DNA of 64,000 bases from positions 2,418,001-2,482,000 of the forward strand of contig NZ_CP083691.1 of assembly GCF_020097155.1 (NCBI RefSeq). The letters are read 5' to 3'. This document shows, piece by piece, positions 11,336-35,080 of the stretch (its first letter is position 1; each line of letters begins with the position of its first letter). A model generated the notes under the pieces. It worked only from the letters and a program-made list of their open reading frames with translations, was not told the origin of the DNA and did not search any database. Both the position numbers and the translations under genes were made by a program. This stretch comes from Micrococcus porci. Its GTDB lineage: Bacteria; Actinomycetota; Actinomycetes; Actinomycetales; Micrococcaceae.

Positions 11336-12332
11336 TCTTGTGTCCATCTCCGCGGTGGTGCTGGGCCACGCCTACCTGGCCGACCTGACGTTCAGCCCGT
11401 ACCTGGAGATCTGGCGGATGCCGCTGTTCTTCTTCCTCACGGGCTACTTCTGGACCCGGGGCCGGCCATGGGCGGCGGACGCCCTCTCCCGGTTCCGCTC
11501 CCTGATGGTCCCGTACCTGCTGTGGTCGGTGCTGATGACTCTTGTGGTGCTGAGCTGGAGCCGCCGGAGCCAGATCGACGGCGTCACGCTGGCCGACCTG
11601 GTCTCCGCCGGCTGGTACGGCGGGGCGGACCAGCCGCCGCCGTGGTGGGCGTTCTGGTTCATCTCGGTGCTGTTCTTCGTGGCCCTGCTGCGCCGCGCCC
11701 TGGAGCGGGCGCCGTCCTGGGCCGGGTGGGCGGTGGCCCTGGCGGGGCTCGCGGCGGCCGAGCTGGTTCCGGAGTCCGCGATCGCGCGGACCCCGCTGGG
11801 GATCGGCCTCGCCGCCCCGTGCCTGTTCTACGTGCTCGCCGGGGAGGCGTTCCGGCGGCGCGTCCAGCCGCGGATCCGCCGCCACCGCACGCTGATCGGC
11901 GTCGCGCTCGTGGCGGCGGGGGTCGGGGCCGTGGCCCTGGGGCTGCCGCCGCACAACATCAAGTGGGGCGGCTTCGGACTGTTCCCCTGGACGCCCCTGA
12001 CGGGGATTGCGATGGCGGCCGGCATGGTGCTCGTGTTCGGCGCCTTCGTGGAGCGGCGGCTGCGGGCCTTCGCCCGCGACACCGGGACCGGACGGGCGAT
12101 CCGCGCGGGGATCACCGCGCTGACGAGGACGGGCACCGTGGTGGTGCTGCTGCATGGACTGGTGCTGATGGAGGCGATGCGCGTGGGGATCGAGGACAAC
12201 CTGATGAAGTTCGTGGTAGCCCTGACGGTGAGCTGGGCCGTGGGACTCGCCCTGCTGGCCACTCCCCTGGCCCGCCCCCTCACGGGCGTGCCGCAGCAGT
12301 GGTTCCCGTTCGGACGGGAGGCGGGGGCATGA
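11322..12332 (+). CDS. Acyltransferase family 3 membrane protein (start uncertain)
   Basis: The protein shows the acyltransferase-3 N-terminal motif VDALRLVSISAVVLGHAYL with its catalytic-type His, then PLFFFLTGYFW, and about ten hydrophobic helices. Such enzymes transfer acetyl or other acyl groups to surface glycans or small molecules. No normal start exists: the GTG at 11322 is the only candidate close to the motif, has no Shine-Dalgarno sequence, and lies in the right arm of a terminator hairpin; the frame runs open upstream to 11082 without family-like residues. It may therefore be truncated at its 5' end. The stop overlaps the phosphatase start (ATGA at 12329-12332). Confidence 0.72.
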   Translation: MDALRLVSISAVVLGHAYLADLTFSPYLEIWRMPLFFFLTGYFWTRGRPWAADALSRFRSLMVPYLLWSVLMTLVVLSWSRRSQIDGVTLADLVSAGWYGGADQPPPWWAFWFISVLFFVALLRRALERAPSWAGWAVALAGLAAAELVPESAIARTPLGIGLAAPCLFYVLAGEAFRRRVQPRIRRHRTLIGVALVAAGVGAVALGLPPHNIKWGGFGLFPWTPLTGIAMAAGMVLVFGAFVERRLRAFARDTGTGRAIRAGITALTRTGTVVVLLHGLVLMEAMRVGIEDNLMKFVVALTVSWAVGLALLATPLARPLTGVPQQWFPFGREAGA

Positions 12333-13021
12333 GCTGGTTCGAGCGCCCCGCCCTGCGGTCCCCGTTCGCGGCCGCCCCGGGGATGGATGCCCCGGCCGAC
12401 GACGGCGCGGGCGGCCCCCTGCGGATCCTCACCGTGTGCACGGGCAACATCTGCCGCTCCGCGTGGGCCCACCACGTGCTGCAGGCCCGCCTCGACGCCG
12501 CGCTCGGCGCCGACGTCGTGGAGGTCTCCAGCGCCGGGACCGGGCCCAACCAGGCGCTGGCCGTCCCAGAGGAGCTGCTCACCCTGGCCCCCGACGCGGG
12601 GGTGCGCGCCGCGCTGGCGGCCCATCGCCCCCGCCGGCTGACGGCGCGCGTGCTGGCCGGGCAGGACCTGGTGCTGACGGCCACCGAGGCGCATCGCGAC
12701 GCCGTCGTGCGCGAGGCCCCGGCCGCGCTCCGCCGCTCCGCCACCCTCCTCGACGCCGGCGCCCTGCTGGCCGACCCCGACGCCGTGGCCCCGGGCGGCG
12801 GCGGCCGGGCGCTGGTCGCGGCCCTGGAGGCCGCGCGTCGGGAGGGGAGGGGCCTGGACGCGGGACGACGGGGCCTGTTCCCGGCCGGACGCCGCGCCGC
12901 CGACCTCGCGGACCCGTTCCGCGGCCCCGCCGAGGGCTACACGGAGATGACGCGTGCACTGGAGCCGGCCCTCGCGGCGGTCGAGGCGGCGGTGGTGCGG
13001 GCCGTGGAGCCCGCCCGCTGA
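12329..13021 (+). CDS. Low-molecular-weight protein-tyrosine-phosphatase (Wzb-like)
   Basis: The C-x5-R signature is present as VCTGNICRSAW (Cys37, Arg43), and the general-acid Asp is in the DPF motif (Asp195). At 230 residues it is longer than the usual 150-180, because of a ~30-residue N-terminal extension and an Ala/Gly/Arg-rich insertion (about 145-185). The acyltransferase stop overlaps its ATG. Lying 1.5 kb from the BY-kinase gene, it is the likely phosphatase for that kinase's C-terminal tyrosine cluster. Confidence 0.88.
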   Translation: MSWFERPALRSPFAAAPGMDAPADDGAGGPLRILTVCTGNICRSAWAHHVLQARLDAALGADVVEVSSAGTGPNQALAVPEELLTLAPDAGVRAALAAHRPRRLTARVLAGQDLVLTATEAHRDAVVREAPAALRRSATLLDAGALLADPDAVAPGGGGRALVAALEAARREGRGLDAGRRGLFPAGRRAADLADPFRGPAEGYTEMTRALEPALAAVEAAVVRAVEPAR

Positions 13022-13043: not shown

Positions 13044-14336
13044 TCAGTGCCCGCGGGCCGCCGCCTGCCGGAGGGTCCGCTCCTCGCGCCGGGCGCGGGC
13101 CTGGGCGTCGAGCGGGGCGTCGGCCTCCGTGATCGCCAGGGTCGCCCCGGCCGCCAGGATGAGCATGGACGGGATGGAGACGAACACCTCGCCGAGCTGG
13201 GTGGCGGTCACCAGGACCACCACGGCCGCGGCCTCCACGGCCACGCGCGACGGCGTCCGGAGGCGGGTGGCGCCCAGGCGCAGCCCGTACACGGCGTACG
13301 CGGTGAGCATCGCGGCGGTGAGCACCACCCCGCCCTCCACGTAGAGCGCCGCGTAGGAGTTGTGGAAGAGGAACCGGCCGGCGTCGAGCTCGACGAACGA
13401 CTGCGCCAGCCCCTGGCCCGTCCACGGCGTCGCCTCCACCTTGACGCCGGTGGCCGTCTGGATGACGCTGCGGAACCAGTCCGTGCCCTCGCGGTCCGAG
13501 TAGACGCCGACCCGCGCGAGGTTCTCCTCCGCGAAGCCGACCGCCCACGCCAGGAGGGCCAGCAGGGCGACCCGCAGGACCGGCCCCATGCGGGGGGTGA
13601 GGACCACCCAGACGAGGGCGCAGGCGAAGCCGGCGAGCGAGGTGCGGGATCCGGTGAGGAAGACGCACAGGCCGGAGGCGGAGAGCAGCAGCAGGCGCAC
13701 GCCGGGGCGGCGGACGAAGGTCAGGGCCAGGACGGGGACGGCGGCGTAGTAGAGGCCCGCCACGTTCTTGTCCGCGAGGAAGCCGGTGAGGAAGCCCTGG
13801 TAGGGCGCGGGCACGAGCCCGGCGTAGAACAGGGGCACGTTCACGGCCATCGCGGCGAGGAGGCCGGTGAGCACGGACCGCAGGTCGACGCGGCGCGCGG
13901 CGAAGCAGCCCACCAGGGCCGTGAGGGCGGCCATGCGGACCAGGCGGCGGAGCCAGACGGCGTCGGGGACGCCCATCGCGAGGGACACGGCGGCGAGGTA
14001 GACGCCGACGAGGACGGCCAGCAGCGCTGCGACGCCCAGCGCGGACGCCCTCCGCTTCGCCCGCCGGCAGAGCGCGAGGCCCAGCAGCACCATCATGGCG
14101 GCCTCGTTGAGCGGGACGGGCACGCCGCCGGCGGGCAGGGTGTACGCCTCCATGGCCAGGAGGAACCCCAGGAGCAGCTCGGGCACGCGGAGGGAGGTGC
14201 GGGGGCCGGCGGCGTCCTCGGCGGTGAGGACGGACACCCCCCGCGCGGTGGCGGCCTCACGGCGGCCGCGCTCAGCCAGGACCGCCTGATAGCGCGGGTC
14301 CTGGAGGGCGGGGCCGGAGGGGAGGTGCGGGGGCAT
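13044..14336 (-). CDS. Wzy/O-antigen ligase-family polysaccharide polymerase
   Basis: This 430-residue integral membrane protein has about ten transmembrane helices and the Wzy_C-type loop with an HNSYAALYVEGG motif near residues 320-330, preceded by a large extracytoplasmic loop containing DWFRSVIQTATG. Members join lipid-linked oligosaccharide repeats or ligate glycans outside the membrane. The first ~45 residues are hydrophilic. It is divergent from the Wzz/BY-kinase gene, so polymerase and chain-length regulator share a control region of 149 bases; a minus-strand TAGGCT at 14397-14402 is a plausible -10 box. Confidence 0.8.
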   Translation of the reverse strand: MPPHLPSGPALQDPRYQAVLAERGRREAATARGVSVLTAEDAAGPRTSLRVPELLLGFLLAMEAYTLPAGGVPVPLNEAAMMVLLGLALCRRAKRRASALGVAALLAVLVGVYLAAVSLAMGVPDAVWLRRLVRMAALTALVGCFAARRVDLRSVLTGLLAAMAVNVPLFYAGLVPAPYQGFLTGFLADKNVAGLYYAAVPVLALTFVRRPGVRLLLLSASGLCVFLTGSRTSLAGFACALVWVVLTPRMGPVLRVALLALLAWAVGFAEENLARVGVYSDREGTDWFRSVIQTATGVKVEATPWTGQGLAQSFVELDAGRFLFHNSYAALYVEGGVVLTAAMLTAYAVYGLRLGATRLRTPSRVAVEAAAVVVLVTATQLGEVFVSIPSMLILAAGATLAITEADAPLDAQARARREERTLRQAAARGH

Positions 14337-14485: not shown

Positions 14486-15875
14486 ATGAACATCCTCGAC
14501 TTCCTTCGCGTCCTGCGAGCCAATCGCCTCGTCCTCCTGGGAGGGGTGGTGCTGGGCCTCCTGGGCGGCTTGGTCTACTCCCTCCTCCAGCCGACGCTCT
14601 ACACCTCGACGTCCACCGGCTTCGTGACCGTGGCCGGCGAGGCCAGCATCTCCGGGACGGAGACGGCGTTGACCCGCGCGCAGTCCTACGTGCCGCTCAT
14701 CAACAGCCGCACGGTGCGGGAGAAGGTCGCCGAGTCAGGCGTCGACGTGTCGGGGTCCACGCTCTCGGCCCAGGTGGTGCCGAATTCCAATCTCATCACC
14801 GTGACGGCGCTGGCCCCGGACCCGCAGCGGGCCGCCGACCTGGCCAACACCGCGCTGGGGGCGACGGCGGAGGTGGCGAACAGCCTCGACCCCACCTCCA
14901 ATGTCAAGGTCACCGCCATGGAGGACGCCCTGCCGCCCGCTGGGCCGTCCAGCCCGGACCACCTGCGCAACGCTCTGATCGGGGCGGGGATCGGCCTCCT
15001 GGCCGCCCTGGCGGTGGCGTTCCTGCGGCGGGTGCTCGACGTGAACGTGCGCACCACCACCGACGCCACGGAGGCCTCCGGGGCCGGCCTGCTCGGCGCG
15101 ATCCCGCAGGACGGGACCATGAAGGCGGAGCGCACGGCCCCGCTCGGCGTGCCCTCGCCGCGGGCGGCGGAGGCCCTGCGCCAGCTGAGGACCAACCTGC
15201 GCTTCGCCGCGGTCGACGACCCGCCCCGCGTCGTGATGGTGACCAGCTCCAACCCGGGCGAGGGCAAGTCCACCGTCATCGCCGGCCTGGCGCAGGCCGT
15301 CGCCGTGTCCGGCCAGCCCGTGATCCTCGTGGACGCGGACCTGCGGCGGCCCCGCCAGGCCAGCCAGTTCGGCGTCGACGGACGCGTGGGCCTGTCGGAG
15401 GTCCTCAGCGGGGACGTCCTGCTGGAGGACGCCGTCCAGGACCTCGGGGACGGGCTCCTGCTCCTCCCGGCCGGCCGCACGCCCCCGAACCCGTCCGAGC
15501 AGCTCGGATCGCACCGCATGCAGGAGTTGCTGCGCGTGCTCGCCGAGACCCATCTGGTCCTCGTCGACGCCCCCCCCGGTGCTGCCGGTGACGGACTCCA
15601 CCCTGCTGGCGGCCGTCGTGGACGGGACCGTGCTGGTGGTGCGCCACGGCAAGACCCGGAAGGACCATGTGGAGGTGGCCCGGGACATGCTGGCCAAGGT
15701 CAACGCCCGCATGCTGGGCGTGGTGCTCAACGGCGTGCCCGCCTCCGGTGTGGGCTCGGACTACTACGGCGGGGGCTACGGCGCGGACGGCGGCAGCTAC
15801 GACGTCTACTACCAGGCGCCCCGGGACGCCGCCGACGCCGCGGCCGGGACCGCGGGCGACACGTCGCGACGCTGA
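14486..15875 (+). CDS. Wzz/BY-kinase (polysaccharide co-polymerase with tyrosine kinase), frameshifted at a poly-C run
   Basis: The first frame gives a chain-length domain with a transmembrane helix at about 14-34 and another at 162-182, then a BY-kinase domain with Walker A TSSNPGEGKST (Lys261), Walker A' ILVDADLRRPR and Walker B LVLVDAPP (357-364). A run of eight C at 15570-15577, inside Walker B, shifts the frame; the natural continuation (LPVTDSTLLAAVVDGTVLVV onward, ending in a Tyr-rich YYGGGY...YDVYY tail) lies in another frame from 15579 to the stop at 15875. Seven C would restore one 462-residue protein. As read, translation runs on to 15949 as unrelated sequence, losing the tyrosine tail. 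Slippage-based switching or a sequencing error are both possible. Confidence 0.88.
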
Positions 15876-15931
15876 TCGCGCCCGGCGGCAGGGCCAGGTC
15901 GTCGCACCGACGGCGCAGGCCCGGGGATGCA

Positions 15932-15965
15932 GAAGGGCCCCGCCTCTGACGAGGCGGGGCCCTTC
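15932..15965. terminator. Bidirectional terminator after the BY-kinase gene
   Basis: A perfect 15-bp stem (15932-15946 with 15951-15965) around the loop TGAC lies between convergent stops at 15875 and 15984. Confidence 0.9.
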
Positions 15966-15983: not shown

Positions 15984-16544
15984 TCAGCAGCCCGCCGTGG
16001 GCGGGGTGGTCTCGAAGCAGTTCTTGAACTCGACGATGCCCCCGTTGCACAGATCCGCGCCCTCGGGGGCGCCCTTCGGCAGGGCCAGCTGCAGCTTGCC
16101 CTTGACGCAGCCGGACTCCTGGGCCGAGTTGCCGGTGTTGTTCACCACGTAGTAGTAGGTCTTGGACTGGCCCGGCTGCAGGAGCAGCTCGGGGTCCATG
16201 GCGGCCAGTCGCTTGCCTCCCCTGCACGGGCTGGCGGTGTAGAGACGCGCCTCGCCATTCCGGGTGGTGTGGCCGCCGAACACCACGGTCACCGTGCCCG
16301 GGTTGACGTACACGGGGGTGGGCGACGTGTTGGTGATGGTGATGGTGAAGCCGTAGGCCTGCTTGATGCCATCGGGGTGGCCACCGCCCGGGAACTTCTC
16401 GGCGGTGCCCGAGGTCACGTTGACACAGCCGGTCGGGGAGGCGGCGGCGAACGGGGCGGCGGCGACGGCGGCGACGGCGGGGACGGACCACGCGATGCCG
16501 GCGGACACGGTGCGGCGGTTGACGGTCTTGGGAGTGGTCTGCAT
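15984..16544 (-). CDS. Secreted protein of unknown function with twin-arginine-like leader
   Basis: The 186-residue protein begins with NRRTVSAGIAWSVPAVAAVA and an Ala-rich segment ending in AAAS, which resembles a Tat-type export signal. The mature part is predicted to be beta-rich, with four cysteines visible in spaced positions and a stretch TITITNTSPTPVYVNPGTVTV typical of Ig-like surface domains. The frame is open further upstream to 16646, but the ATG at 16544 has GGAG 6 bases upstream and begins the signal. A paralogue with the same leader pattern lies at 25173-25919. The function is unknown. Confidence 0.82.
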   Translation of the reverse strand: MQTTPKTVNRRTVSAGIAWSVPAVAAVAAAPFAAASPTGCVNVTSGTAEKFPGGGHPDGIKQAYGFTITITNTSPTPVYVNPGTVTVVFGGHTTRNGEARLYTASPCRGGKRLAAMDPELLLQPGQSKTYYYVVNNTGNSAQESGCVKGKLQLALPKGAPEGADLCNGGIVEFKNCFETTPPTAGC

Positions 16545-16853: not shown

Positions 16854-17717
16854 ATGACCGCCGCGCCCGCCCCCCTGGAGACCCGGGTCCGGCTGGCGCA
16901 CGCCCGCATCACCCACCTCATGGCGGCGGCCGGTGTGCGCTCTCTCCACATCAAGGGCTATGCGATGGGGCCGGGGGTCTACGCCGGCGGGCGGACGAGC
17001 TCGGACGTGGACCTGCTGGTGCACCCGGCCGACCTCTCCCACGCCCTGGATGCCCTCACCTCCCACGGGTGGCGTCGTATCGCGGACTTCGCGGAGGGCT
17101 CCGTGTTCGAGCACGCGGCGACCCTCTGGCACGACCAGCTCGGCTACGTGGACGTGCACCGGCGCCTCCCCGGCCTCGGCCGCTCCCCGGTGGACGCCTT
17201 CGAGGCGCTGTGGGGGGAGCGCACCACCACGGTGGTCGCCGGGCACGCCGTTCCCGTCCCGTCCCTCCGGCACCAACGCCTGGTCGTGCTGGTCCATGGG
17301 GCGCGCGACGCCGGCCGCGGCCGCTTCGACGTGGACCACCTGCGCCACACCCTCGACGCCGGCCAGTGGGCGGAGCTGCGGGTGCAGGCCCAGATCCTCG
17401 GGGCCGGGGCCGCGTGGTCGATCGCCACCGGGGAGACGGACGTCGCGGGCGTGGACGAGCGGGAGGCGCTGCTCCTGTCCGCGGTCCGCGGGGACGAGTC
17501 CGGCATCCGGCTGCTCGCCACCCGCTGGCACGCCGCGCGGGGGTGGCGGGAGCGACTCCACCTCCTGGTGCGCACCGTGCCCGTCAACCGCGCGCACCTG
17601 CAGATGCGCCTCGGACGTCCGCCCACCACGGCCGACGTCCTGCGAGAGCAGGCGTCGCGGGGCGCGGCGCTGACCCGCTGGGCCGCAGGGAAGGCGGTGC
17701 CCCGTGTCGGACGCTGA
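16854..17717 (+). CDS. Nucleotidyltransferase-fold protein (NTase_5-like)
   Basis: The 287-residue protein has a pol-beta nucleotidyltransferase core: HIKGYAMGPGVYAGGRTSSD followed by VDLLV, i.e. the Gly-Gly and Asp-x-Asp pair that binds metal and NTP. The next block, SHGWRRIADFAEGSVFEHAA and YVDVHRRLPG, matches the uncharacterised NTase_5 family, whose members sit beside PqqD-like and HPr-kinase-like genes in exopolysaccharide loci. The substrate is unknown. It overlaps the PqqD gene by 14 bases, and an HprK-PqqD fusion at 50250 may be the third partner. Confidence 0.75.
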   Translation: MTAAPAPLETRVRLAHARITHLMAAAGVRSLHIKGYAMGPGVYAGGRTSSDVDLLVHPADLSHALDALTSHGWRRIADFAEGSVFEHAATLWHDQLGYVDVHRRLPGLGRSPVDAFEALWGERTTTVVAGHAVPVPSLRHQRLVVLVHGARDAGRGRFDVDHLRHTLDAGQWAELRVQAQILGAGAAWSIATGETDVAGVDEREALLLSAVRGDESGIRLLATRWHAARGWRERLHLLVRTVPVNRAHLQMRLGRPPTTADVLREQASRGAALTRWAAGKAVPRVGR

Positions 17718-18063
17718 GCACCCGCCGTTCGCCCAGGCTCCCGCCGCACGCGCCTGGCGGGTCGCGCCGACGACGGCGTGGGTGCGTTCGGGCGAGCATC
17801 AGGTGACCGTGATGGACCTGGACGAGGGGAACCCCCAGGTCCTGAGCCCCACCGGGTCCGCGGTCTGGGAGCTGCTGCTCGACGGACGCACACCCGAGGA
17901 CGACCTCGCCGCGGATCCGCCGAAGCCCGTCGAGGAGGAAGCGCTGTGCGGGGCCGTCGCGGAGGCCTTCGGCGTCGACGTCGAGGTGGTCGCCGCGGAC
18001 ACGCGCGCGTTCCTGGGCATGCTGGCCGGGCACCGCCTCGTGGTGCCGGCCGTCCTCCCCTGA
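17704..18063 (+). CDS. PqqD family protein (peptide-chaperone-like winged helix)
   Basis: The 119-residue protein shows the PqqD pattern: a beta hairpin ending in VMDLDEGNPQVLSPTGSAVW, then ELLLDGRTPEDDL and a C-terminal helix pair. The 'L.p.G..vW.ll.dG.t..el' signature is clear. PqqD proteins bind peptide substrates for modifying enzymes, but in exopolysaccharide loci the partner is unknown. The GTG start at 17704 overlaps the nucleotidyltransferase gene in another frame, so the two are coupled. No precursor peptide or radical SAM gene is nearby. Confidence 0.72.
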   Translation: MSDAEHPPFAQAPAARAWRVAPTTAWVRSGEHQVTVMDLDEGNPQVLSPTGSAVWELLLDGRTPEDDLAADPPKPVEEEALCGAVAEAFGVDVEVVAADTRAFLGMLAGHRLVVPAVLP

Positions 18064-21000: not shown

Positions 21001-21760
21001 CGGTGGGGTGCCCGCTGCCGTCCTCGGAGGTGTCCTGCAGGGAGCGCTGGTCCGCCACGGAGAACCAGCGCATCTGCTCGACCTCGTCGCCGAAGAACTC
21101 CACGCGCACGGGGTGGTCGGCGGTGGGCGGGAAGACGTCGATCAGCCCGCCGCGCACCGCGAACTCGCCGCGGCGGGACACCATGTCCACGCGGGCGTAG
21201 GCGGCGTCGGCGAGGTCCTGGACGACGGCGTCGAAGTCGCGCTCCTGCCCGACGCGCAGGTGCACGGGGGCCAGCTCCCCCAGGCCGCGGACGAGCGGCT
21301 GGATGACGGAACGGACGGGGGCCACCACCACGCGCAGCGGCGGCCGGCCGTCCTCCCCCGGGTGTGCCAGGCGGCGCAGCACGTCCAGGCGCGCACCCAC
21401 GGTGTCCGAGCGCGGGGAGAGCCGCTCGTGCGGGAGGGTCTCCCACGAGGGGAAGAGGGCGACGGACGCGGGGTCCGCCCACGCCGCGAGGTCCCCGATC
21501 AGGTCCTCGGCCTCGCGGGCGGTGGCGGTGACCACCAGCAGGACGGCGTCCGCGCCGTGCCCGGCGGCGAGCGCGTCGGCGAGGTGCGCGAACAGGGGCG
21601 CGCGGGCGCCGTCGGGCAGGCCGATCTCCAGCTCCTGCCCGCGGGCGGGCAGGGCACGGGCGGCGGAGGCGGCGGCCGCCTCGAACGCGGGCTCGCGGGC
21701 GAGGACCGGCAGCAGCGGGGCGAGGACGGGCACGGGCGCGGTGACGTCGGCGGGGCTCAC
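18086..21760 (-). CDS. mfd: Transcription-repair coupling factor
   Basis: Mfd displaces stalled RNA polymerase and recruits UvrA. The 1224-residue protein has the N-terminal UvrB-like region (SWETLPHERLSPRSDTVGAR), the RNA-polymerase-interacting CarD-like domain (LQPGDFVVHSQHGIARFVEL), the translocase with Walker A GDVGFGKTEVAVRAAF and DEEQ box (VDEEQRFGVEHKE), and the C-terminal TRCF domain. I start it at GTG 21760, because this overlaps the stop of the upstream gene (GTGA); the frame is open further up but without family-like residues. It lies in the usual actinobacterial neighbourhood with pth and rplY. Confidence 0.95.
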   Translation of the reverse strand: MSPADVTAPVPVLAPLLPVLAREPAFEAAAASAARALPARGQELEIGLPDGARAPLFAHLADALAAGHGADAVLLVVTATAREAEDLIGDLAAWADPASVALFPSWETLPHERLSPRSDTVGARLDVLRRLAHPGEDGRPPLRVVVAPVRSVIQPLVRGLGELAPVHLRVGQERDFDAVVQDLADAAYARVDMVSRRGEFAVRGGLIDVFPPTADHPVRVEFFGDEVEQMRWFSVADQRSLQDTSEDGSGHPTELHAPPCRELLVTPSVQERARALMARLPGAADMLERIAEGQAVEGMESLSPLLADGMTSLVHLLPEGSLTLLVEPERIRSRADDLLATNEEFLAAAWAGAAQGAQAPVDLGADQSAAGGFLTLAELREAVLEERQGHWSTTALSPDAELLPDASALRSSLGVPTTFGADMEAMVRFTRERLADGWSVVLLTDGPGSARRLAELHADAGLTASVLDGPVDPAPAPGRVRVATAAVGTGFTDPETKLAVVTEQDLFGRHRTAGTRAAGGKLARRRRNAVDPLALQPGDFVVHSQHGIARFVELQRRPVTGGARKRPGEEESYREYLVLEYAPSKRGAPGDRLFVPTDQLDLISQYVGGEAPALSKMGGSDWAQTKSKAKRATREIAGELIRLYSARMATRGHSFAPDTPWQAELEEAFPYIETPDQLTTIEEVKKDMESPVPMDRLVSGDVGFGKTEVAVRAAFKAVQDGKQVAVLVPTTLLARQHHQTFTDRFAGFPVTVAALSRFQTAKESKEVVEGLAAGEVDVVVGTHRLLSKEVQFKDLGLVIVDEEQRFGVEHKEALKKMRTNVDVLAMSATPIPRTLEMSLTGIRETSTLATAPEERHPVLTSVGPYTDQQVIAAIRRELMREGQVFYVHNRVTTIDKVASRLAQLVPEARIAVAHGKMSESRLEQIMVDFWEKRFDVLVSTTIIETGLDIANANTLIVEDAHRYGLSQLHQLRGRVGRGRDRAYAYFLYDAQKPLGEVAMERLKAVAQHNELGAGLQLAMKDLEIRGAGNLLGGEQSGHIAGVGFDLYLRMVGEAVADFKGEEDTAPAEVKVELPVNAHLPHDYVPGERLRLEMYRSLATAVDDAAVDAVVEEMKDRYGPLPEPVQALVAVARFRNRAREAGVTEVMLLGQNVKFGPAADLPESRQLRAQRMYKGAQLKPALNALLIPRPKTKPVMGQDLVDAPLLEWADQVVQAIFAPEPVSAG

Positions 21761-22809
21761 GGGCGGTGGCTCCCCTCGGCGGCCGCGGGCAGCTCGGTGG
21801 CCACGATCTCGCCGATCTCCTCGAGGAAGGCGATGACCTCGTCGGCGCCGAAGACGGGGCCGCCGGCGGTCATGCCGTCCGCGCCCAGCAGCACAGCGCT
21901 GGGGAAGCCGGTGAGGCCGAGGCCGCCGGCGGCGGCGCCGGCCGGGTCCTCCAGGACCAGCTCGGCCGGGATCGTGCCGTGGCGCAGCTCGCCGCCCGGG
22001 ACGGTCTGCGGCATGAGCACCCGGACGCGGATCGGCCCGAGGCGCTCGACCAGCTCCGGCAGGCGGGCGATCACCGCGGAGCAGGAGCCGCACCCGACGG
22101 ACAGCCGCAGGGCGACGACCGCGCCGGGGATCACGAGCTGGTGCAGGGTCACGAAGGCCCCGCCCTGCTGGACCGCGGCGACGGGGAACGGACGGCGCTC
22201 CGGCTCGTCGCCCTGCCCCTCGGCCGGGGCGGGCGCGGCCGAGCCGGGGACCCCGGCGGCGGGCACCGGGACGGCGGACGCGGCGGCGGGGACGGACTCC
22301 CGGCCCACCAGGACGGCGGCGGCGGCCAGCAGCAGGGTGACGACCACGGTCCAGGCGGTGACGTCCTCGCCGAACGCGGTCAGGGGCAGCCACTCCGTGG
22401 CGATCCCGTGCACGGCCAGGGAGGCGACGCCCTCGAACAGGGCCATGACGGCCAGCAGCAGGAACAGCACGTTGCGGACCACGGTCTGCCCGGTGATCGG
22501 CGCGGCGGAGGCCTCACCGAAGCAGCCGCAGGAGACGCCGTCGCCCGTGGCCCGGACCACGAGCACGAGGAACGCGACGAACAGCGCGACGGCGGCCAGC
22601 CCCACCAGGGGGCGCAGCACCGTGAACGGCTGGACCAGGGCCAGGGCGAGCAGCAGCTCGAGCCAGGGGAAGGCGCGGGCCAGGCGCGCGTCGTTCCACG
22701 GGGCCGGCACCTTGAGGCGGGTGAACACCGCGCCGACGTCCTCGCGGGAGCGCAGCTTCGCTGCCCCGCTGAAGAGCATGATCAGGGCCACGGCCCAAAG
22801 TGCGGACAT
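21757..22809 (-). CDS. MauE-type membrane protein fused to a thioredoxin-like domain
   Basis: The N-terminal half has four to five transmembrane helices and the MauE/DoxX-like features FSGAAKLRS in helix 1 and the redox motif VSCGCFGEAS. After a Pro/Ala-rich linker, the C-terminal ~140 residues have a thioredoxin-like fold with CxxC as VGCGSCSAVI and a cis-Pro block GFPSAVLLG. The likely job is electron or disulfide transfer across the membrane; the target is unknown. ATG 22809 has GGAAAGG upstream. The stop overlaps the mfd start (GTGA), so this redox protein is translationally coupled to a DNA-repair gene. Confidence 0.8.
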   Translation of the reverse strand: MSALWAVALIMLFSGAAKLRSREDVGAVFTRLKVPAPWNDARLARAFPWLELLLALALVQPFTVLRPLVGLAAVALFVAFLVLVVRATGDGVSCGCFGEASAAPITGQTVVRNVLFLLLAVMALFEGVASLAVHGIATEWLPLTAFGEDVTAWTVVVTLLLAAAAVLVGRESVPAAASAVPVPAAGVPGSAAPAPAEGQGDEPERRPFPVAAVQQGGAFVTLHQLVIPGAVVALRLSVGCGSCSAVIARLPELVERLGPIRVRVLMPQTVPGGELRHGTIPAELVLEDPAGAAAGGLGLTGFPSAVLLGADGMTAGGPVFGADEVIAFLEEIGEIVATELPAAAEGSHRP

Positions 22810-25172: not shown

Positions 25173-25919
25173 TTACAACTGACTGGTGCCCTCAGCGTCC
25201 GGCGAAGCCGCCATACGAGCCTGGCCGCCGGAGACGTACGCGCCACTCATACCTGCTCGACGTTCGAAGTGCAGGGTCCGGGGCGACTGCGGGCCGTTGG
25301 GCCCGTCCGGATCCGCGACGATCTCCCGGTACGCCCAGTAATCGAGGGGCACGCACCTGCCACCCTCCAACTGGGAGAACGTGCTCGAGGTCACGTGGAA
25401 GTTCTCAAGGTACAGCCGCCCGTCACTCTTGACGTTCGCCGGATTGATGGTGCCGGTGTACGTCCAGGTGTAGGGGGTGTAGGTGAAACCGTCAGCCTTC
25501 CTCTGCGGGCTACCCGTCACCGGGCCTTCCCACTTCGAGGAATGCCCGGTGGCCGCCTTCCAGGTGATCGGGTTCTGCTTCACGTGGTCGCCACGCACCC
25601 AGTAGACGAGCTTGGCGTTGGTGTAGACACCCTCCGACGAGAAGTCGTAGAGGTAGAGCCCCCAAGGCGCGCCGTCGGGCGTGCGGCCTCCACCAGCGGG
25701 CGCCGAGGTCACGTCGAGAGAATAACCAGAGGCGCACCCGGCACGCCCACTGGGCGTGACCTGCACCCAGCCGTTGATGCCGGGATCCTTGCGCAGTGAA
25801 ATGGCGAAGGACGGTGCCGCCGAGACCATGGCGACGGCGGGGACAGACCAGGCCAGCCCGGTGGCGACGGCGCGCCGACTCGGGCCTGACGCGGTGGTGT
25901 GAGCAGAGCGAGCGTTCAT
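25173..25919 (-). CDS. Secreted protein of unknown function with twin-arginine-like leader (paralogous leader to 15984-16544)
   Basis: The 248-residue protein starts PSRRAVATGLAWSVPAVAMV and continues to a small-residue cleavage area (SFAIS). The leader pattern RR-x3-5-G-x-AWSVPAV matches the other secreted protein in this window, while the mature parts look different: this one is rich in aromatic residues (Trp, Tyr) and predicted to be beta-structured. I do not recognise a domain. ATG 25919 has AAAGG upstream. Codon use is less GC-biased than in the rplY-pth genes. It marks the left edge of the polysaccharide island. Confidence 0.78.
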   Translation of the reverse strand: MNARSAHTTASGPSRRAVATGLAWSVPAVAMVSAAPSFAISLRKDPGINGWVQVTPSGRAGCASGYSLDVTSAPAGGGRTPDGAPWGLYLYDFSSEGVYTNAKLVYWVRGDHVKQNPITWKAATGHSSKWEGPVTGSPQRKADGFTYTPYTWTYTGTINPANVKSDGRLYLENFHVTSSTFSQLEGGRCVPLDYWAYREIVADPDGPNGPQSPRTLHFERRAGMSGAYVSGGQARMAASPDAEGTSQL

Positions 25920-25990: not shown

Positions 25991-27424
25991 TCAGCGTGTG
26001 CCACCCGCCGCTTCTGACAGGTGGTCTCGCAGGCGTTCGCGCTGATCCGGGGCGGTGTAGCCGACGGCGGCCAGGGGCCCGAGATCGAGGGCACTGTTGG
26101 TCGGCCGCGGGGCCGCGCCCTCCTTGCCGGCCATGTATTCGGCGGTGGTCGCGGCGGAGACGCGTGCGGCGTCGTGGCCGGTGTCCTCGAAGACCCACCG
26201 GGCGACGTCGTGCCAGGTGACCACGTCACCGCTGTTGGTCATGTGGAACGTGCCCGTGGGCGCGTCCGTGGTGACCAGGTGCAGCAGGGCGTCGGCGAGG
26301 TCGTCGGCGAAGGTGAGGCGGCCGTGCTGGTCGGCGACGACGGCCGGGTCAATCCCGCGCTCGGCGAGGGAGGCCATCGTGGCCACGAAGTTCTTCCCCT
26401 CCCCGATCACCCAGGAGGTGCGGACGATCCAGTGCCGCGGCACGGTGCGCACCGCGGCCTCGCCGGCGGCCTTCGACTGGCCGTAGACGCCCAGCGGCGC
26501 GAGCGGGTGGTCCACCGGGTGCTCCTGCCCCACGGGGAGGGTGCCGTCGAACACGTAGTCCGTGGAGACCTGCGCCAGGGGGACGCCGGCCTCGGTGCAG
26601 CGGCGGGCGAGCTCGGCGACGGCGGTCGCGTTGACGGCCCAGGCCTGGGCCCGGCCCTCGGGCGTCTCGGCGGCGTCCACCGCGGTCATGGCGGACGCGT
26701 TGACCACGGCGCGCAGGCCACGGAAGTGCTCCCGCGGCCAGGACGCCGGATCGGTCATGTCCCACGTGTCCCGTCCGTGGGCCTCCACGGGGATCCCGGC
26801 GGCCTCGGCGCGGGCCACGAGGGCGCGGCCGAGCTGGCCGCCGGCGCCGAGCACGAGGATCGGGGCGGGCGGCATGGGGGTGACGTCCGCGAGCATCGGG
26901 TGGGCGCGGTCCTTGTCCGAGAGCTCGGCGTCCTCGAGCGGGATGGGCCAGGCGATGGCGGCCGTCGGGTCCGCGAGGTTGAGGAACGTGTACTGGCCCT
27001 GCGCGTCGGCGGACCAGTGGTCGTTCACCAGGTAGGTGTAGGCGGTGTCCGGCTCGAGCGTCTGGTAGGAGTTGCCCACCCCGCGCGGCACGAAGACGGC
27101 CTTCTCCGGGCCGAGCTCCACGGTGGCGACGGCGCCGAAGGACGGCCCTTCGCGCAGGTCCACCCAGGCGCCGAAGATCCGGCCGTGGGCGACGGCCACG
27201 TACTTGTCCCACGGTTCGGCGTGGATGCCGCGGGTGGTGCCGACGGCGTCGTTGAAGGAGATGTTGTTCTGCACCGGGGCGAGCGAGGCCAGGCGGGGGT
27301 GCTCGGCGGCGAGGGCGCGGATCTTCTCCCGCTGCCAGTTCTCCTTGAACCAGCCGCGGTTGTCCCCGTGGACGTCGAGGTCGAGGACGAGCAGGCCGGG
27401 GATGGCGGTCTCGGTGATCTTCAT
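25991..27424 (-). CDS. Bifunctional dTDP-4-dehydrorhamnose 3,5-epimerase/reductase (RmlC-RmlD fusion)
   Basis: Residues 1-185 form an RmlC cupin (NNISFNDAVGTTRGIHAEPW, with the active-site His in RGIHAE; FVPRGVGNSYQTLEP). Residues 188-477 form an RmlD reductase with the Rossmann loop LVLGAGGQLGRAL, STDYVFDG and the YxxxK pair in YGQSKAAGE. Together these convert dTDP-4-keto-6-deoxyglucose to dTDP-L-rhamnose. The ATG at 27424 follows a GGAGG sequence; the frame is open upstream but overlaps rmlB. It lies 13 bases after rmlB and is cotranscribed with it. Fusion of the two steps is seen in several actinobacteria. Confidence 0.92.
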   Translation of the reverse strand: MKITETAIPGLLVLDLDVHGDNRGWFKENWQREKIRALAAEHPRLASLAPVQNNISFNDAVGTTRGIHAEPWDKYVAVAHGRIFGAWVDLREGPSFGAVATVELGPEKAVFVPRGVGNSYQTLEPDTAYTYLVNDHWSADAQGQYTFLNLADPTAAIAWPIPLEDAELSDKDRAHPMLADVTPMPPAPILVLGAGGQLGRALVARAEAAGIPVEAHGRDTWDMTDPASWPREHFRGLRAVVNASAMTAVDAAETPEGRAQAWAVNATAVAELARRCTEAGVPLAQVSTDYVFDGTLPVGQEHPVDHPLAPLGVYGQSKAAGEAAVRTVPRHWIVRTSWVIGEGKNFVATMASLAERGIDPAVVADQHGRLTFADDLADALLHLVTTDAPTGTFHMTNSGDVVTWHDVARWVFEDTGHDAARVSAATTAEYMAGKEGAAPRPTNSALDLGPLAAVGYTAPDQRERLRDHLSEAAGGTR

Positions 27425-27437
27425 CAGCGGTGCCTCC

Positions 27438-28445
<1,008 letters not shown>

Positions 28446-28694
28446 CCGAGGTTAGGGTCGACGCGATCCCGAGACGGCATGCTTGCCTTTCAATCTCACG
28501 CCCGTGGATACCCCGACCAATCCGTCCTATACGACGGCGCCCCACGGGCAGCGAAACACGCGCGGTTAGATCGCAGAATCGACGGAGCCCGGCACCCGAG
28601 GCACTACATAGACGCCGGGAGCGGATCAGCGGCCGGAGCACGTGCCGCTCCTGTAGGCCAGCGGGGCGCCCCTCCGGGGCAACCAGAGGCCCGC

Positions 28695-28712
28695 ACAATA
28701 CCTAGGTATTGT
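28695..28712. promoter_or_regulatory. 18-bp perfect palindrome before the GT25 gene
   Basis: ACAATACCTAGGTATTGT reads the same on both strands and ends 7 bases before the ATG at 28720. It is strikingly AT-rich for this genome and sits in the divergent rmlB/GT25 region. A dimeric regulator's operator over the start region is plausible; it could also hinder ribosome access as an RNA hairpin. Confidence 0.6.
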
Positions 28713-28719
28713 AAGGCGC

Positions 28720-29550
28720 ATGGGCCAGATCACGGACAGGTACGTCATCTCGTTGGAGGGGTCGCCGCGGCGGGAGGCGTTCTTCTCGCAGCCGGGCGTG
28801 GCCGACTTCGTCGTGTGGGATGCCTTCGACGGCCGGACCGGCGCGGGACGGGATCGCTTCGATGTGGTCGCCTTCGAGCGCCGGGCGGGCCGGCCTCCCG
28901 AGGGCGGGGAGATTGGCTGCACACTTTCCCACGCCGGTCTCCTTGCTGATTTCGCGGCAGGCTTGGGCCGTCCGGATGACCTCATGCTGGTCGCAGAAGA
29001 CGACGTCGTATTCACCCCCGACTTCGAGGCTGTCCTGGGCCGTGTTGCTCGCACGCGCGGGTGGGGCTGGACATTGCTGGCCCAGGGCCTTGAAGACCCG
29101 TTTCGGGACCCCTTCTGGGCCAAGAGCCGCGACCGAGCGCCCCAGTCTCTGCTGGCGAAACCCGTCGGGCCACCATCTTCCCCCTGGCGCTACCGCCTGG
29201 GCAACTGGGACGGGGAGCTGTGGGGCACCGGCCTCTACCTCGTGACCAGGGAAGCCGCCCGCGCTCTCACGGACCATGCCACCCGGGAAGGCTTGTCCTG
29301 GGCAGCCGACGACTATGTCACCTGGCACGCAGCGGCAGGGGTGAAGGTGTGGATCCTCCTCCCCACCATCGCTGGATGGGTCGGCGAATCAGAGATTAAT
29401 GCCACCACCCGGCCCCACCTCCAGATCCAGTCCTACGCGGCCCATCCGATGGGCCGGCAGGCGTGGTCGCGGCGCGTCTCCCGCTTCCGCGCGGGGGCCC
29501 GCATCGCGTGGAAAGAAATGCGCGGGGACACCCGCCCCTGGGCGAGCTGA
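28720..29550 (+). CDS. Glycosyltransferase family 25-like protein
   Basis: The 276-residue protein has GT25 (LPS biosynthesis type) features: an N-terminal YVISLEGSPRREAFF, the EIGCTLSHAGLLADF block, the acidic metal-site block LMLVAEDDVVFTPDFEAVL, and GTGLYLVTREAARAL. It would add a hexose (often galactose) to the surface glycan from the cytosol. It is the first gene of the rightward part of the island, divergent from rmlB and preceded by an 18-bp palindrome. Confidence 0.82.
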   Translation: MGQITDRYVISLEGSPRREAFFSQPGVADFVVWDAFDGRTGAGRDRFDVVAFERRAGRPPEGGEIGCTLSHAGLLADFAAGLGRPDDLMLVAEDDVVFTPDFEAVLGRVARTRGWGWTLLAQGLEDPFRDPFWAKSRDRAPQSLLAKPVGPPSSPWRYRLGNWDGELWGTGLYLVTREAARALTDHATREGLSWAADDYVTWHAAAGVKVWILLPTIAGWVGESEINATTRPHLQIQSYAAHPMGRQAWSRRVSRFRAGARIAWKEMRGDTRPWAS

Positions 29551-29660
29551 GCCCATCGCGCCCACCTCGAGAACCTATCCAACACAGAGTCTGGGCAACG
29601 CCTTCCTGGCCCACTAAGGGCCACCCACCGGGCTGGCGAGGGGCCTGTGTGGTGGCTGGG

Positions 29661-29666
29661 TAGAGT
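29661..29666 (+). promoter_or_regulatory. Leaderless -10 box of the capsular glycosyltransferase gene
   Basis: TAGAGT lies 7 bases before the ATG at 29674. Confidence 0.45.
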
Positions 29667-29673
29667 GCGGCAT

Positions 29674-30570
29674 ATGAGACTCATGTACTCTGCACGGCAG
29701 GCGAAGCACGCCGCCTTTGTGGCGAACAAGCGGACTCGACGCGTGCTGGGGGCAGGGAAGTGGCGGGCTCTGACCATGGTGACACCGGCCCTGTCCAGGG
29801 TCTGGCCCTTCCGCTACGACGCCCAGCGGTACACCGGTCCGAACCGGGGCAAGGAAGGGCACGATCTCTCGTTTCTGCAGCTCCCCCCCCCGATTGACGC
29901 GGCGTCCAGCGAGCTGCCGCGTCGCGTGTTCGTTCTGTGGACTGGCAACAACCCGCTTCCCCCAAACCGGTCGCGCAACCTCGCCCACCTGCGCAAGGTG
30001 ATCGCGGTGCCCGTAGTCCTGGTGACGCCACAGACGCTAGGCGGGTGGCTCATCCCCGGGCATCCCCTCCATCCCGCTTATGAGCACCTCTCCCTTGTGC
30101 ACCGCTCGGACTACCTGCGGGCCTATTTGATGCACCACCACGGCGGCGGGTACATCGACCTCAAGGCCCCCGTGGGTTCCTGGGCACCGGCCTTCGACCG
30201 GATGGAGCGAGATCCCTCGGCCTGGCTCTCCGGCTACGGGGAGATCAACGCGAACGCCTCCGCCCGGTTCCCCGGTCCGATGGGGCGGGACATCGCCACC
30301 CACTGGAAGAGCCTCGTGGGGACGGCTGCCATGATCGTTCGCTCCCACACCCCGTTCACCGGCGAGTGGATACGGGAGGTGGACCGCCGCATGGACGCGC
30401 TGGCTCCCCGCCTTGCCGCGAGCCCCGGCCTTGTCCGCCTCGGCGGGCCGGGCTACCCGGTGTCCTGGACGGATCTGCTGGGCAAGGTCTACCAGCCCCT
30501 GCAGCTCAAGTACTTCGAGCACATCCGCGTGGACGATGACCTCCTGGTCAATTTCACCGACTACCAGTGA
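29674..30570 (+). CDS. Capsular polysaccharide synthesis glycosyltransferase (Caps_synth/GT32-like)
   Basis: The 298-residue protein has RRVFVLWTGNNPLPPNRSRN, then HRSDYLRAYLMHHHGGGYID followed by LKAP, the family's SD-x-LR...GG-x-Y-x-D block. The usual DxD metal motif reads DLK here, so the second Asp is replaced. WLSGYGEINANASARFPGPM and a membrane-proximal basic N-terminus follow the family pattern. I choose ATG 29674 over an upstream GTG because of the TAGAGT box 7 bases before it. Its sugar specificity is unknown. Confidence 0.75.
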   Translation: MRLMYSARQAKHAAFVANKRTRRVLGAGKWRALTMVTPALSRVWPFRYDAQRYTGPNRGKEGHDLSFLQLPPPIDAASSELPRRVFVLWTGNNPLPPNRSRNLAHLRKVIAVPVVLVTPQTLGGWLIPGHPLHPAYEHLSLVHRSDYLRAYLMHHHGGGYIDLKAPVGSWAPAFDRMERDPSAWLSGYGEINANASARFPGPMGRDIATHWKSLVGTAAMIVRSHTPFTGEWIREVDRRMDALAPRLAASPGLVRLGGPGYPVSWTDLLGKVYQPLQLKYFEHIRVDDDLLVNFTDYQ

Positions 30571-30690
30571 CCCATGTCACTGCCCCCACGGGATTAGGCG
30601 CGGTGAACGATCCTCCAATCGTCCCTTCAAGAGGCTTACCGAAGAAGATGACGCCAGTGAACTGCCCTTCCTTCCAGTGGGGCACAACAA

Positions 30691-31776
30691 CTACTGGGCG
30701 CTCCAACCCCGCCGACGAATGGCCTCATCAACTTGTCTCCACATGTCGGCATAGGTGAAGTGGTCGGCGACCATGGCCGCAGCGTTTCTTCCCAGACGAC
30801 GGCGTGCCTCCGCGTCGCTTGTGAGCTCCGTGAGCGCCGTACGCCAACCGTCCGCGTCTCCCGGCGGGACAAAGACTGCGGTCTCGTCTGTGAAGTACTC
30901 GCGCATGGCCGGAGTGTCCGTGAGGATGAGGCAGGCTCCCGTCCCCGCCGCCTCCAGCGCCACGGTCTGACCACTCGGGTACGCCATAACGTGGGTGGGG
31001 ATCGCGACCATGGACGCGGTCGCGATGACCTCTTGATAGCGCTCGAACGGGACCCGCCCGTGGAGCACCGCCTCGGCGGGGAGCTCGACGTCGTTCAGAT
31101 GACCCTCGCCGGTGTACAGGTGCAGCTGCAGGTCCGAACCTTCCACAGCCTGGAGGAGCGTCGGGAAGTCCCGGCCGCGGTCGGCCCCGACAGAAACGAT
31201 GCCGCGTCGTTCCTCGAATGCCGCGACCGGAAACTGGTCGGGGTTGTATCCGAAACTGACGGCCTCGATTCGTGATGCATCGAACCCTGCCTCCACGAGG
31301 ATCTCCACCTGGTTCCGTGACAGGACGATGATCAGATCCACCCCACTGTAAGACGTCACCACCGCTGTTCGCTGCGCGGGCGACATCCGCTGAAGCTCGT
31401 CCGCGAGCCAGCACGCGATCATGACGAGCGGTCTACCGGCGAAGGGGGCCACCCCTCGGCGCTTGGCCCAGGAAGCAGCGAGCGCCTCCTTCTCCAGGAA
31501 GGCGAGCACCAGGTCCGCCTGCCATGCCTGGCGGACCGACCGGACGGTCTTGTCCATCGGCCGGCCGGAGCGGTGCTCCACGACATCGCGGAGCTTCCGG
31601 TGGACGCGAGTCCGTGCCGGCTCGACCTCGACGAGGTCGTAGCCGAACTGGCCGAGCTGGTCGATCCCGTAGGGGCCGTCCGCTGCTCGACCGGAGGTGA
31701 GGACCAGGCAACGGGTGTTCACGGGTGCCTCCCGAGTGGCATCGCGGATGGAGAGCGATTCCTCGACGCTCCCCAC
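30691..31776 (-). CDS. Glycosyltransferase family 4-like protein
   Basis: The 361-residue GT-B protein has a C-terminal nucleotide-sugar half with GIVSVGADRGRDFPTLLQAV, VLHGRVPFERYQEVIATASM, then YPSGQTVALEAAGTGACLIL, in which the usual E-x7-E pair is reduced to Q...E. The N-terminal acceptor half is divergent. It starts at GTG 31776 and is alone on the minus strand within a rightward block, convergent with the previous gene and divergent from the next. Specificity cannot be told. Confidence 0.75.
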   Translation of the reverse strand: MGSVEESLSIRDATREAPVNTRCLVLTSGRAADGPYGIDQLGQFGYDLVEVEPARTRVHRKLRDVVEHRSGRPMDKTVRSVRQAWQADLVLAFLEKEALAASWAKRRGVAPFAGRPLVMIACWLADELQRMSPAQRTAVVTSYSGVDLIIVLSRNQVEILVEAGFDASRIEAVSFGYNPDQFPVAAFEERRGIVSVGADRGRDFPTLLQAVEGSDLQLHLYTGEGHLNDVELPAEAVLHGRVPFERYQEVIATASMVAIPTHVMAYPSGQTVALEAAGTGACLILTDTPAMREYFTDETAVFVPPGDADGWRTALTELTSDAEARRRLGRNAAAMVADHFTYADMWRQVDEAIRRRGWSAQ

Positions 31777-31873
31777 GGGGAGCAGTCAGCAAGGAACTCG
31801 CCTCAGCGTACCGGCCTTCTCCGGCCTAGGATGGGCCTGACGCCGACCGCCTGACCGAGGAGTTGACTCACCC

Positions 31874-34156: not shown

Positions 34157-35070
34157 ACCAGGCTGTCAGCGTGGTCATCCCTTGCCACAACGCGGCTGGG
34201 AGTATGCAGCGGCAGGTCGACGCGCTCCTCCCCCAGTTGGAGGAGACCGATGAACTCCTCCTCGTCGAAAACCGATCAGCAGACGGAACGCGCCGGATTG
34301 CGGAGGAGGCCGCCCTTCGGGATGCAAGGGTCCGGGTGCTGAACGCGCCCGACAAGGCGGGCGCCAACCACGCCCGGAACATCGGCGCCGCCCGAGCCCA
34401 CAACCCGATCATCCTGTTCTGCGACGCAGACGATGTGGTCCATTCTGGATGGGTGAGGTCCCTCCGACAGGTATTGGGGACTGATGGAATCGCGGGAGGG
34501 AGCGCGACGCCGGTAGATGAAGAGGGCCGTCGTCTTGGCCCCGATTTAGGACTACACGAGACCTTCGGCGGCCCTGCCTACCCCTTGGGCGCCACCATGG
34601 GAGTGCGGCGGGAGGTTCTGGAGACGATCGGAGGTTTCGACGAGTCCTACGCGGGTGGCCACGATGAAACGGACCTGGCGTGGCGAGCCGCACGAGCGGG
34701 GTGGCCAACCCACTTCGTCCCCGAGGCACGTATCGACTACGTCCAACGGCCGGACGCACGGTCTGCTCTTCAGCAACGACGGCTGTACGCCCGGACCTCC
34801 ATTCAGGTGTGGGTCCAGAATCCGGATCTCGTGGACCAGAGCGCCGTGAGCCTGCGTGGGGCCCTTAATGGCGTCCGCCTCGGTCTCCCCCTCGGGATCA
34901 AGATGATCCGGGGAACGGCCACGGCACGCGACGCCGCGCGCTGGGGGTGGGCTCTGGGTGTCCTGGAAGGCCATCTCCGGTATCGAGTCCTCGGTCGGCC
35001 ACCGGCACGTGTGGCGCCGCCCATTCCCCCCGCCCCGCACCCCGCCGAACCCAACCGCCCCTGCGCCTAG
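34153..35070 (+). CDS. Glycosyltransferase family 2 protein
   Basis: The 305-residue GT-A protein has [20 protein letters not shown], the N-rich switch [12 protein letters not shown], the metal motif [13 protein letters not shown] and the acceptor block [20 protein letters not shown]. The ATG at 34153 overlaps the stop of the double glycosyltransferase. The last ~20 residues are proline-rich, and the TAG stop forms part of the TAGACT promoter box of rmlA. Confidence 0.88.
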
Positions 35071-35073
35071 ACT
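35068..35073 (+). promoter_or_regulatory. Leaderless -10 box of rmlA, overlapping the upstream stop codon
   Basis: TAGACT begins with the TAG stop of the upstream glycosyltransferase and lies 7 bases before the rmlA ATG at 35081. Confidence 0.5.
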
Positions 35074-35080
35074 CGGCCTT

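Follow-up and report, generated by a model that had tools for sequence, protein, structure and literature searches.

An RRE-kinase-nucleotidyltransferase set of Micrococcus-like actinobacteria that appears to modify exported proteins tagged in their twin-arginine signal

The window analyzed here is a stretch of 64,000 nucleotides from Micrococcus porci. It encodes an NTP_transf_5 nucleotidyltransferase (NTase), a discrete PqqD/RRE (RiPP recognition element) whose gene overlaps that of the NTase by 14 bp, and, ~32 kb away from this pair, an HprK-like kinase with an RRE fused to its C-terminus (Table 1). Polysaccharide genes lie between the two halves, as a preliminary description of the window had claimed and as Pfam scans of the island confirm. 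The gene of one tagged exported protein adjoins that of the NTase, while a second one borders the glycan island. In the whole genome, one contig of 2.65 Mb, there is one NTase match, and the discrete PqqD and the kinase fusion are the only PqqD matches over the cut-off. The closest named relatives of the system proteins belong to Micrococcus.

Table 1. Genes and features of the window, in order of position.
Feature	Coordinates	Strand	Evidence
Low-molecular-weight phosphotyrosine phosphatase, Wzb-like	12329..13021	+	PF01451, E 5.8e-14
Wzy/O-antigen-ligase-like polymerase	13044..14336	-	PF04932, 30.5 bits (cut-off 31.7)
Wzz + BY-kinase polysaccharide co-polymerase	14486..15949	+	NCBIfam tyrosine-kinase matches below cut-offs
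Tagged exported protein 1, 186 aa; tag 16437-16520, Trp19, Ser36	15984..16544	-	Signal profile, E 7.4e-19 (itself a profile seed)
NTP_transf_5 nucleotidyltransferase (NTase), 287 aa	16854..17717	+	PF14907, E 8.7e-21, 75.1 bits (cut-off 31.2)
Discrete PqqD/RRE, 119 aa	17704..18063	+	PF05402, E 5e-12, 46.4 bits (cut-off 23.4)
MauE/DoxX membrane protein, redoxin-like tail (tail read by eye)	21757..22791	-	PF07291, E 3.8e-19
Tagged exported protein 2, 248 aa, ATG at 25919; Trp24, Ser41	25173..25919	-	Signal profile, E 3.1e-12
Glycan island between the system halves: rhamnose genes, glycosyltransferases, acyltransferase, NeuB-/NeuA-like	25991..50054		Pfam scans
HprK-like kinase + C-terminal RRE fusion, 366 aa; RRE about 51105-51350	50250..51350	+	
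Signal peptidase I (SipI), adjoins HprK-RRE	51422..52222	-	PF10502, E 2.2e-33
Undecaprenyl-phosphate sugar transferase	55002..56495	-	PF02397, E 9.3e-72
ABC exporter, membrane + ATPase domain, 9 kb from HprK	60399..62210	-	PF00005, E 1.7e-25; PF00664, E 1.1e-6

The families first proposed for the NTase and the discrete PqqD were upheld by the profile search, in which both proteins scored over the Pfam cut-offs. For the kinase with its own C-terminal PqqD, profile scores were weak, the fused PqqD reaching 23.1 bits, just below the Pfam cut-off of 23.4. The fusion was modeled with confidence by AlphaFold2 (pLDDT 92.8, pTM 0.90), and in a Foldseek search with this model HPr kinase/phosphatase chains (3tqf, 2qmh) ranked first, intermixed with PEPCK chains, with a best E of 6.4e-4 and a probability of 1.00 for 3tqf. 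The lasso RRE TbiB1 (5v1v) appeared lower in the list (E 0.037, 27% identity over 71 columns, TM 0.63 by target). The Walker A residues Gly108, Gly110, and Lys111 as well as Asp127 are invariant in 12 aligned sequences of the HprK-like kinase. As modeled, the fusion kinase has the HprK fold and the Walker A motif that characterize the PTS HPr kinase/phosphatase. In the NTase, Asp51, Asp53, Asp100, and His102 are kept in all 29 aligned sequences, the window copy among them. One relative of the kinase (P0086, 457 aa), read by eye, apparently bears a PqqD-like stretch at both ends.

The same three superfamilies make up the HPr-rel-A system (TIGR04352, TIGR04353, and an NTP_transf_5 protein), which is linked to surface polysaccharide genes and to which the window proteins had initially been ascribed as a possibility. 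This membership is not supported, as the scores are far below the equivalog cut-offs: the kinase fusion reaches 24.1 bits on HprK_rel_A TIGR04352 (E 1.7e-5; cut-off 200), and the discrete and the fused PqqD reach 15.2 and 15.1 bits, respectively, on PqqD_rel_X TIGR04353 (cut-off 35).

The two RREs differ in their leader pocket. In a PDB profile search with nine discrete PqqDs, TbiB1 (2.1e-14), LppB (1.4e-9), and PbaB1 (1.6e-8) ranked above the PqqD of PQQ synthesis, and the discrete PqqDs are therefore read, on sequence, as RREs of the lasso/LPP type. The leader-pocket Phe is present in 18 of 22 discrete PqqDs, the pocket position for Asp being occupied by Asp in nine and by Gln in six; the window copy retains both Phe and Asp. 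None of 27 kinase-fused RREs has the Phe. By analogy with lasso and LPP systems, only the discrete RRE would be a clear leader binder; the fused RRE, given the missing pocket Phe, probably has a docking role.

To determine whether the families belong together, we surveyed 120 genomes from 32 genera of the family. Kinase and NTase occur together in 33 of these genomes, one without the other in two, and neither in 85, which agrees with the original proposal that the three families form one system. The kinase profile separates cleanly, with 34 genomes at ≥190 bits and a best score elsewhere of 48 bits. With E up to 1e-3 allowed, 34 genomes have an NTase match, which exceeds the Pfam cut-off in 30, and PqqD was found in 34 genomes, 32 of which have the kinase. 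The two exceptions to the pairing are a weak NTase match (20.9 bits in G039) and a kinase in an assembly that is 82% complete (G067). In one genome (G024), PqqD and NTase share an open frame of 468 aa. The NTase-PqqD pair can be far from the kinase in family genomes; in a Propionibacterium MAG (L006), NTase, MauE, PqqD, and HprK adjoin inside a glycan cluster. In a genus of another family (g40), the six kinase genomes (loci L223-L226, L241, L242) have BY-kinase, HprK, discrete PqqD, and tagged genes together, the NTase being labeled in five of the six loci and placed by coordinates in the sixth. Two further genomes of g40 lack the kinase, one of them without the tag (G127) and the other with one tag match (G215).

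The tag was first noticed as a shared N-terminus of exported proteins among the gene neighbours of the system. It follows the pattern RR-x(6,7)-A-W-x-x-P-x-[VI]-x(6)-P-x(4)-S inside a twin-arginine (Tat) signal, with the consensus SRRxVxKGAAWSVPVVAAAVAAPxAAAS, and 11 columns are invariant in the alignment of 13 seeds (R, R, A, W, P, A, A, A, P, A, S). The Tat motif is S/T-R-R-x-F/V-x-K. Judged by its SRRxVxK motif and its AxA-type cleavage site, the tag reads as a Tat signal, which would suit protein modification in the folded state before export.

The genetic link between the trio and the tag is strong. With strong matches defined as E below 1e-7, the tag was found in all 34 kinase genomes of the family and in four of the 86 others (both 34, kinase only 0, tag only 4, neither 82; p 7.9e-26), five more genomes with weak matches only (5e-5 to 8e-4) being left out of the count. 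Profile seeds came from 12 of the 34 kinase genomes; the other 22 are all tag-positive. The tag also follows the kinase inside seven mixed genera (stratified p 1.2e-4). Two of the four genomes with tag and no kinase score (G061, G083) carry kinase pieces only, and the signals read from all four (these two, G074, and G077; loci L206, L212, L220, L221, L222) retain the Ser. Among 218 genomes of the order, 34 have both, four the kinase only, four the tag only, and 176 neither (29, 4, 4, and 167, respectively, when 14 genomes already seen are removed). Among 246 genomes of the class, the corresponding numbers are 11, 0, 5, and 230, where the kinase was counted at ≥189 bits, and 15 further genomes with only weaker, kinase-like matches of 45-64 bits did not enter the count. 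Two class-level tag-like matches (L247, L248), in genomes that lack a strong kinase match, were read; both lack the Ser and one also the Trp. The NTase matches of the order, grouped by eye, are of two kinds. The first kind, near full-length at 96-148 bits, was found in 16 genomes, none of which is among the 38 tag genomes, while 31 of the 36 genomes with the second kind (match ≤76 bits) are tag genomes. Of the 33 family genomes whose HprK/NTase neighbourhoods were fetched, 16 have a tagged gene at most 9 kb from one of these two genes, and the other 17 have none in the fetched stretches. The number of tag matches per genome reaches 17 (G043; E up to 0.01), and several-copy clusters of tagged genes resembling substrate cassettes were seen at some loci (L219 of G013; L224-L226).

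The preliminary description had reported that no peptide precursor was visible, but the window encodes two tagged exported proteins. The own genome holds one more tag-like match (L122, C1:2402681-2402749), which degenerates beyond the W..P motif and is without the Ser. In 17 sequences of the protein 1 family, mean column identity is 95% in the tag region (residues 9-36) and 62% in the mature part, whereas for ordinary secreted proteins the reverse is expected, with the signal less conserved than the mature part. The mature part of protein 1 was modeled as a beta-sandwich, and six Cys are kept in 94-100% of the 17 rows. Protein 2 gave no Pfam match. Tagged open reading frame (ORF) fragments have a median length of 211 aa (range 66-497); none of the 129 scanned has an LPxTG-like end, and seven have TM-like segments. 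The MauE/DoxX-redoxin protein could make the disulfides of such Cys-rich tagged proteins. Its gene adjoins mfd in the window, and elsewhere NTase (L006) or HprK (several family loci).

To examine the Ser with a model that excludes it, we searched the window and the fetched loci with a truncated profile that stops at the second Pro and leaves the cleavage region out of the model. This search gave 131 non-redundant signals, of which two without the full RR..W..P were set aside. The Ser is located at W+17 in 122 of the remaining 129 signals and at W+18 in six more, the last being the degenerate copy of the own genome; the W+17 count is partly circular, since many loci had been fetched through the full profile, which includes the Ser. 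In the window and the loci fetched for HprK or NTase, seeds excluded, 13 of 15 signals place the Ser at W+17 and one more at W+18. A profile-free pattern search, which is noisy as it includes shadow frames, found Ser at W+17 in 130 of 210 cases, compared with 151 of 1299 W..P motifs elsewhere. Among 22 other exported-like proteins taken as a control, Ser follows AxA at +1 in one and at +2 in three. A signal peptidase I site (small-x-Ala/Ser) is present at W+13/W+15 in 92 of the 129 signals and at W+14/W+16 in 70, both occurring in 39; the W+13/W+15 site also suits protein 2 of the window. Cleavage at the former site would make the Ser residue +2 and at the latter residue +1, and because both sites are acceptable to the peptidase, its predicted position in the mature protein is given as +1 or +2.

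The tag holds WxxPxV, the motif bound by lasso and LPP RREs, at lasso or LPP spacing: W, P, and V/I stand at -17, -14, and -12 in lasso numbering, with the Ser as +1, or at -16, -13, and -11 in LPP numbering, with the Ser as +2. LPP precursors are described with Y-16, P-13, V-11, and a phospho-Ser at position 3, and are cleaved by a SipW-like signal peptidase, and paeninodin-type RREs are reported to prefer Trp over Tyr (PMC13381572). The leaders of Bsf-type lasso peptides carry the RRE-binding YxxPxL at -17 to -12, and the kinase BsfK phosphorylates Ser3 of the core, alanine changes in YxxPxL not having abolished phosphorylation according to that account (PMC10368454). Hence the earlier remark that no biochemistry is known for these families does not hold, as HprK-like kinases are described to phosphorylate a precursor Ser in LPP and lasso systems (PMC13381572, PMC10368454, PMC8498205), and the pseudomycoidin NTase is reviewed as adding one or two hexoses onto the phosphorylated peptide (phospho-Ser) in vivo (PMC8498205). 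For LPP, deletion of the NTase is reported to leave the product unchanged (PMC13381572).

The linear polyphosphorylated peptide (LPP) RiPPs are among the closest known systems. As described for LPP (PMC13381572), HprK-like kinase, discrete RRE, and NTP transferase occur together here, with a signal-peptidase relative in a capsule locus; [Y/W]xxPxV is followed by a Ser at an aromatic-to-Ser distance of 17 here and 18 in LPP, and in both the N-terminal region is conserved and the C-terminus variable. In contrast to LPP, which Popov et al. 2026 call restricted to Bacillota (PMC13381572), the hosts are actinobacteria, the kinase carries a fused RRE, a Tat signal doubles as the leader, and the substrates are larger proteins with up to 17 tag matches per genome. 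The peptidase is also of another type: SipI, the one peptidase of the genome that was typed, scores 102.8 bits on the bacterial TIGR02227 (cut-off 47) and 20.6 bits on the archaeal TIGR02228 (cut-off 51.85), and is thus not the archaeal/SipW-type leader peptidase of LPP. By analogy, the system likely works like LPP, but with a bacterial-type peptidase beside the kinase and whole exported proteins as substrates. Lasso clusters of the paeninodin, pseudomycoidin, and Bsf types share an HprK-like Ser kinase, a discrete RRE, and an NTase with the system (PMC8498205, PMC10368454), as well as the position of the leader motif (-17 to -12), provided that the Ser is +1. Unlike in these clusters, the substrate here is no short peptide, and neither a macrolactam synthetase nor a B2 peptidase was matched by Pfam among the window proteins scanned.

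Micrococcus-like actinobacteria therefore appear to use an enzyme set usual for modified peptides to read a fixed tag in an export signal and to modify a Ser at the start of the mature protein. Building on the computed families, their co-occurrence, the tag with its near-invariant Ser, and the spacing of its motif, we propose a model of five steps in which NTase, discrete RRE, and HprK-RRE probably form a modification machine for exported proteins tagged in their Tat signal. The first three steps are inferred from characterized relatives. In the cytoplasm, the discrete RRE would bind the tag at the Trp, Pro, and Val/Ile positions of W-x-x-P-x-[VI], in the manner of lasso and LPP RREs with their leaders; the HprK domain would then phosphorylate the conserved Ser (+1 or +2 of the mature protein), perhaps repeatedly; and the NTase would add a nucleotide or sugar to the Ser phosphate. 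For the fourth step, our guess is that the RRE doubles as an export checkpoint, that the folded protein exits by Tat, and that the signal peptidase, often a dedicated copy beside HprK, removes the signal. Guessing further, the modified N-terminus would in the fifth step probably be joined to surface polysaccharide from the neighbouring Wzy/Wzz-BY-kinase pathway. The trio had been suggested to be a regulatory or modification module for glycan assembly; modification of exported proteins is the more likely role, rather than regulation of that assembly. Weighing against the model are the continued phosphorylation in the Bsf system after alanine changes in YxxPxL, the LPP product unaltered by deletion of the NTase, the missing pocket Phe of the fused RREs, the 17 family genomes lacking a tagged gene in the fetched neighbourhoods, the four order-level kinase genomes with no tag match, the tag-only genomes of the family (four, with the Ser retained), the order (four), and the class (five), and the nine system genomes that show no signal peptidase excess.

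A dedicated peptidase for the tag, for which SipI is the candidate in the window, is suggested in many, but not all, lineages by the excess of signal peptidase I genes and their adjacency to HprK. At least three copies are present in 25 of the 34 system genomes compared with 12 of the 86 others, the excess being absent in nine of the 34, and a signal peptidase I gene adjoins HprK in 13 of 30 kinase loci on maps read by eye.

Several observations favour an N-terminal phospho-glycan anchor for the tagged proteins, although the attachment to glycan itself is a guess: the hexoses of pseudomycoidin, the retained Asp residues of the NTase, the constant presence of a BY-kinase, the lack of LPxTG ends, and the scarcity of TM segments. 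BY-kinase genes were found in all 34 system genomes and in 47 of the 86 others, in line with the co-occurrence predicted for them at the outset. In PEP-CTERM/exosortase and LPXTG/sortase systems, one machine handles many substrates that share a short conserved tag on unrelated bodies, and there the sorting tag differs from the present one, which is N-terminal and within the signal peptide. We tentatively put forward, as a possibility that falls short of an even chance, that the system is an N-terminal counterpart of sortase and exosortase, in which the RRE reads the Tat-signal tag, the kinase and the NTase together put a phospho-sugar onto the Ser at +1 or +2, and many proteins with one tag become covalently anchored to capsule or surface polysaccharide.

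The RRE and the kinase might instead act as an export checkpoint only, proof-reading tagged Tat substrates with phospho-Ser as a release signal and no glycan involved. The position of the tag within the signal peptide, the RR invariant in all 13 seeds, and the occasional distance of the NTase-PqqD pair from the kinase agree with this explanation, but it accounts neither for the conserved NTase nor for the Wzz-BY-kinase that constantly accompanies the system, and we consider it rather unlikely. Another explanation, that the tagged proteins are precursors of an LPP-like RiPP trimmed to secreted modified peptides, the folded domain being incidental, draws on the same enzyme set and signal-peptidase relative in capsule loci of Bacillota and on LPP precursors that share conserved N-termini and variable C-termini (PMC13381572). 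LPP clusters of Bacillota are also described to include an MsbA-like transporter (PMC13381572), of which the ABC exporter of the window is, by analogy, a possible counterpart. However, the lengths of the tagged ORF fragments, the beta-sandwich predicted for one family, and its conserved Cys all argue against trimming. Moreover, a scan of the short ORFs of the loci with a relaxed form of the first half of the LPP precursor motif YxxPxVLxHQxIxFETxxS gave eight matches, none plausible and none in the window. We consider this explanation improbable. Slightly less probable still is a coincidence of lifestyle, in which the tags are ordinary Tat signals of capsulated actinobacteria and the kinase set acts elsewhere, for instance on glycan enzymes as first supposed. 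The company of BY-kinase genes speaks for this explanation. Against it, BY-kinase is frequent (47 of 86) and the tag rare (four of 86) in system-free genomes, tagged genes lie near HprK or NTase in 16 of the 33 family genomes, and neither Tat nor signal peptidase is known to require a fixed W..P spacing or a Ser.

We thus file the system, with the tagged modification machine as the preferred reading, as a variant of the HprK-RRE-NTase kind with exported-protein substrates. This offers substrates and a chemistry for an RRE-kinase-nucleotidyltransferase trio thought to be precursor-less here, widens the range of LPP-type enzymes to hosts other than Bacillota and to substrates that are entire exported proteins instead of peptides, and allows residue, recognition motif, and substrate list to be predicted from any genome sequence. 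Should the glycan step be true, it would represent a new route of protein attachment to the surface in actinobacteria.

With respect to the glycan genes, the frame of Wzz-BY-kinase changes near a C run at ~15570: residue 365 is the last one covered by the kinase match, and the Tyr-rich tail is found in a second ORF (15579-15875), reflecting either a sequencing slip or a real break. The relative in L005 is a single continuous gene, and in g40 the relative lies inside the NTase-PqqD-HprK cluster. Within the island, a 747-aa protein (43945-46188) joins CBS, NeuB, SAF, and a xylose-isomerase-like TIM barrel, and its relatives belong to the glycan clusters of several family genomes and of the Propionibacterium MAG. 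The third-position GC of the predicted genes falls to 81-91% at ~30000-42000, compared with 94-99% around, which suggests that this stretch is a recently exchanged glycan island between the system halves.
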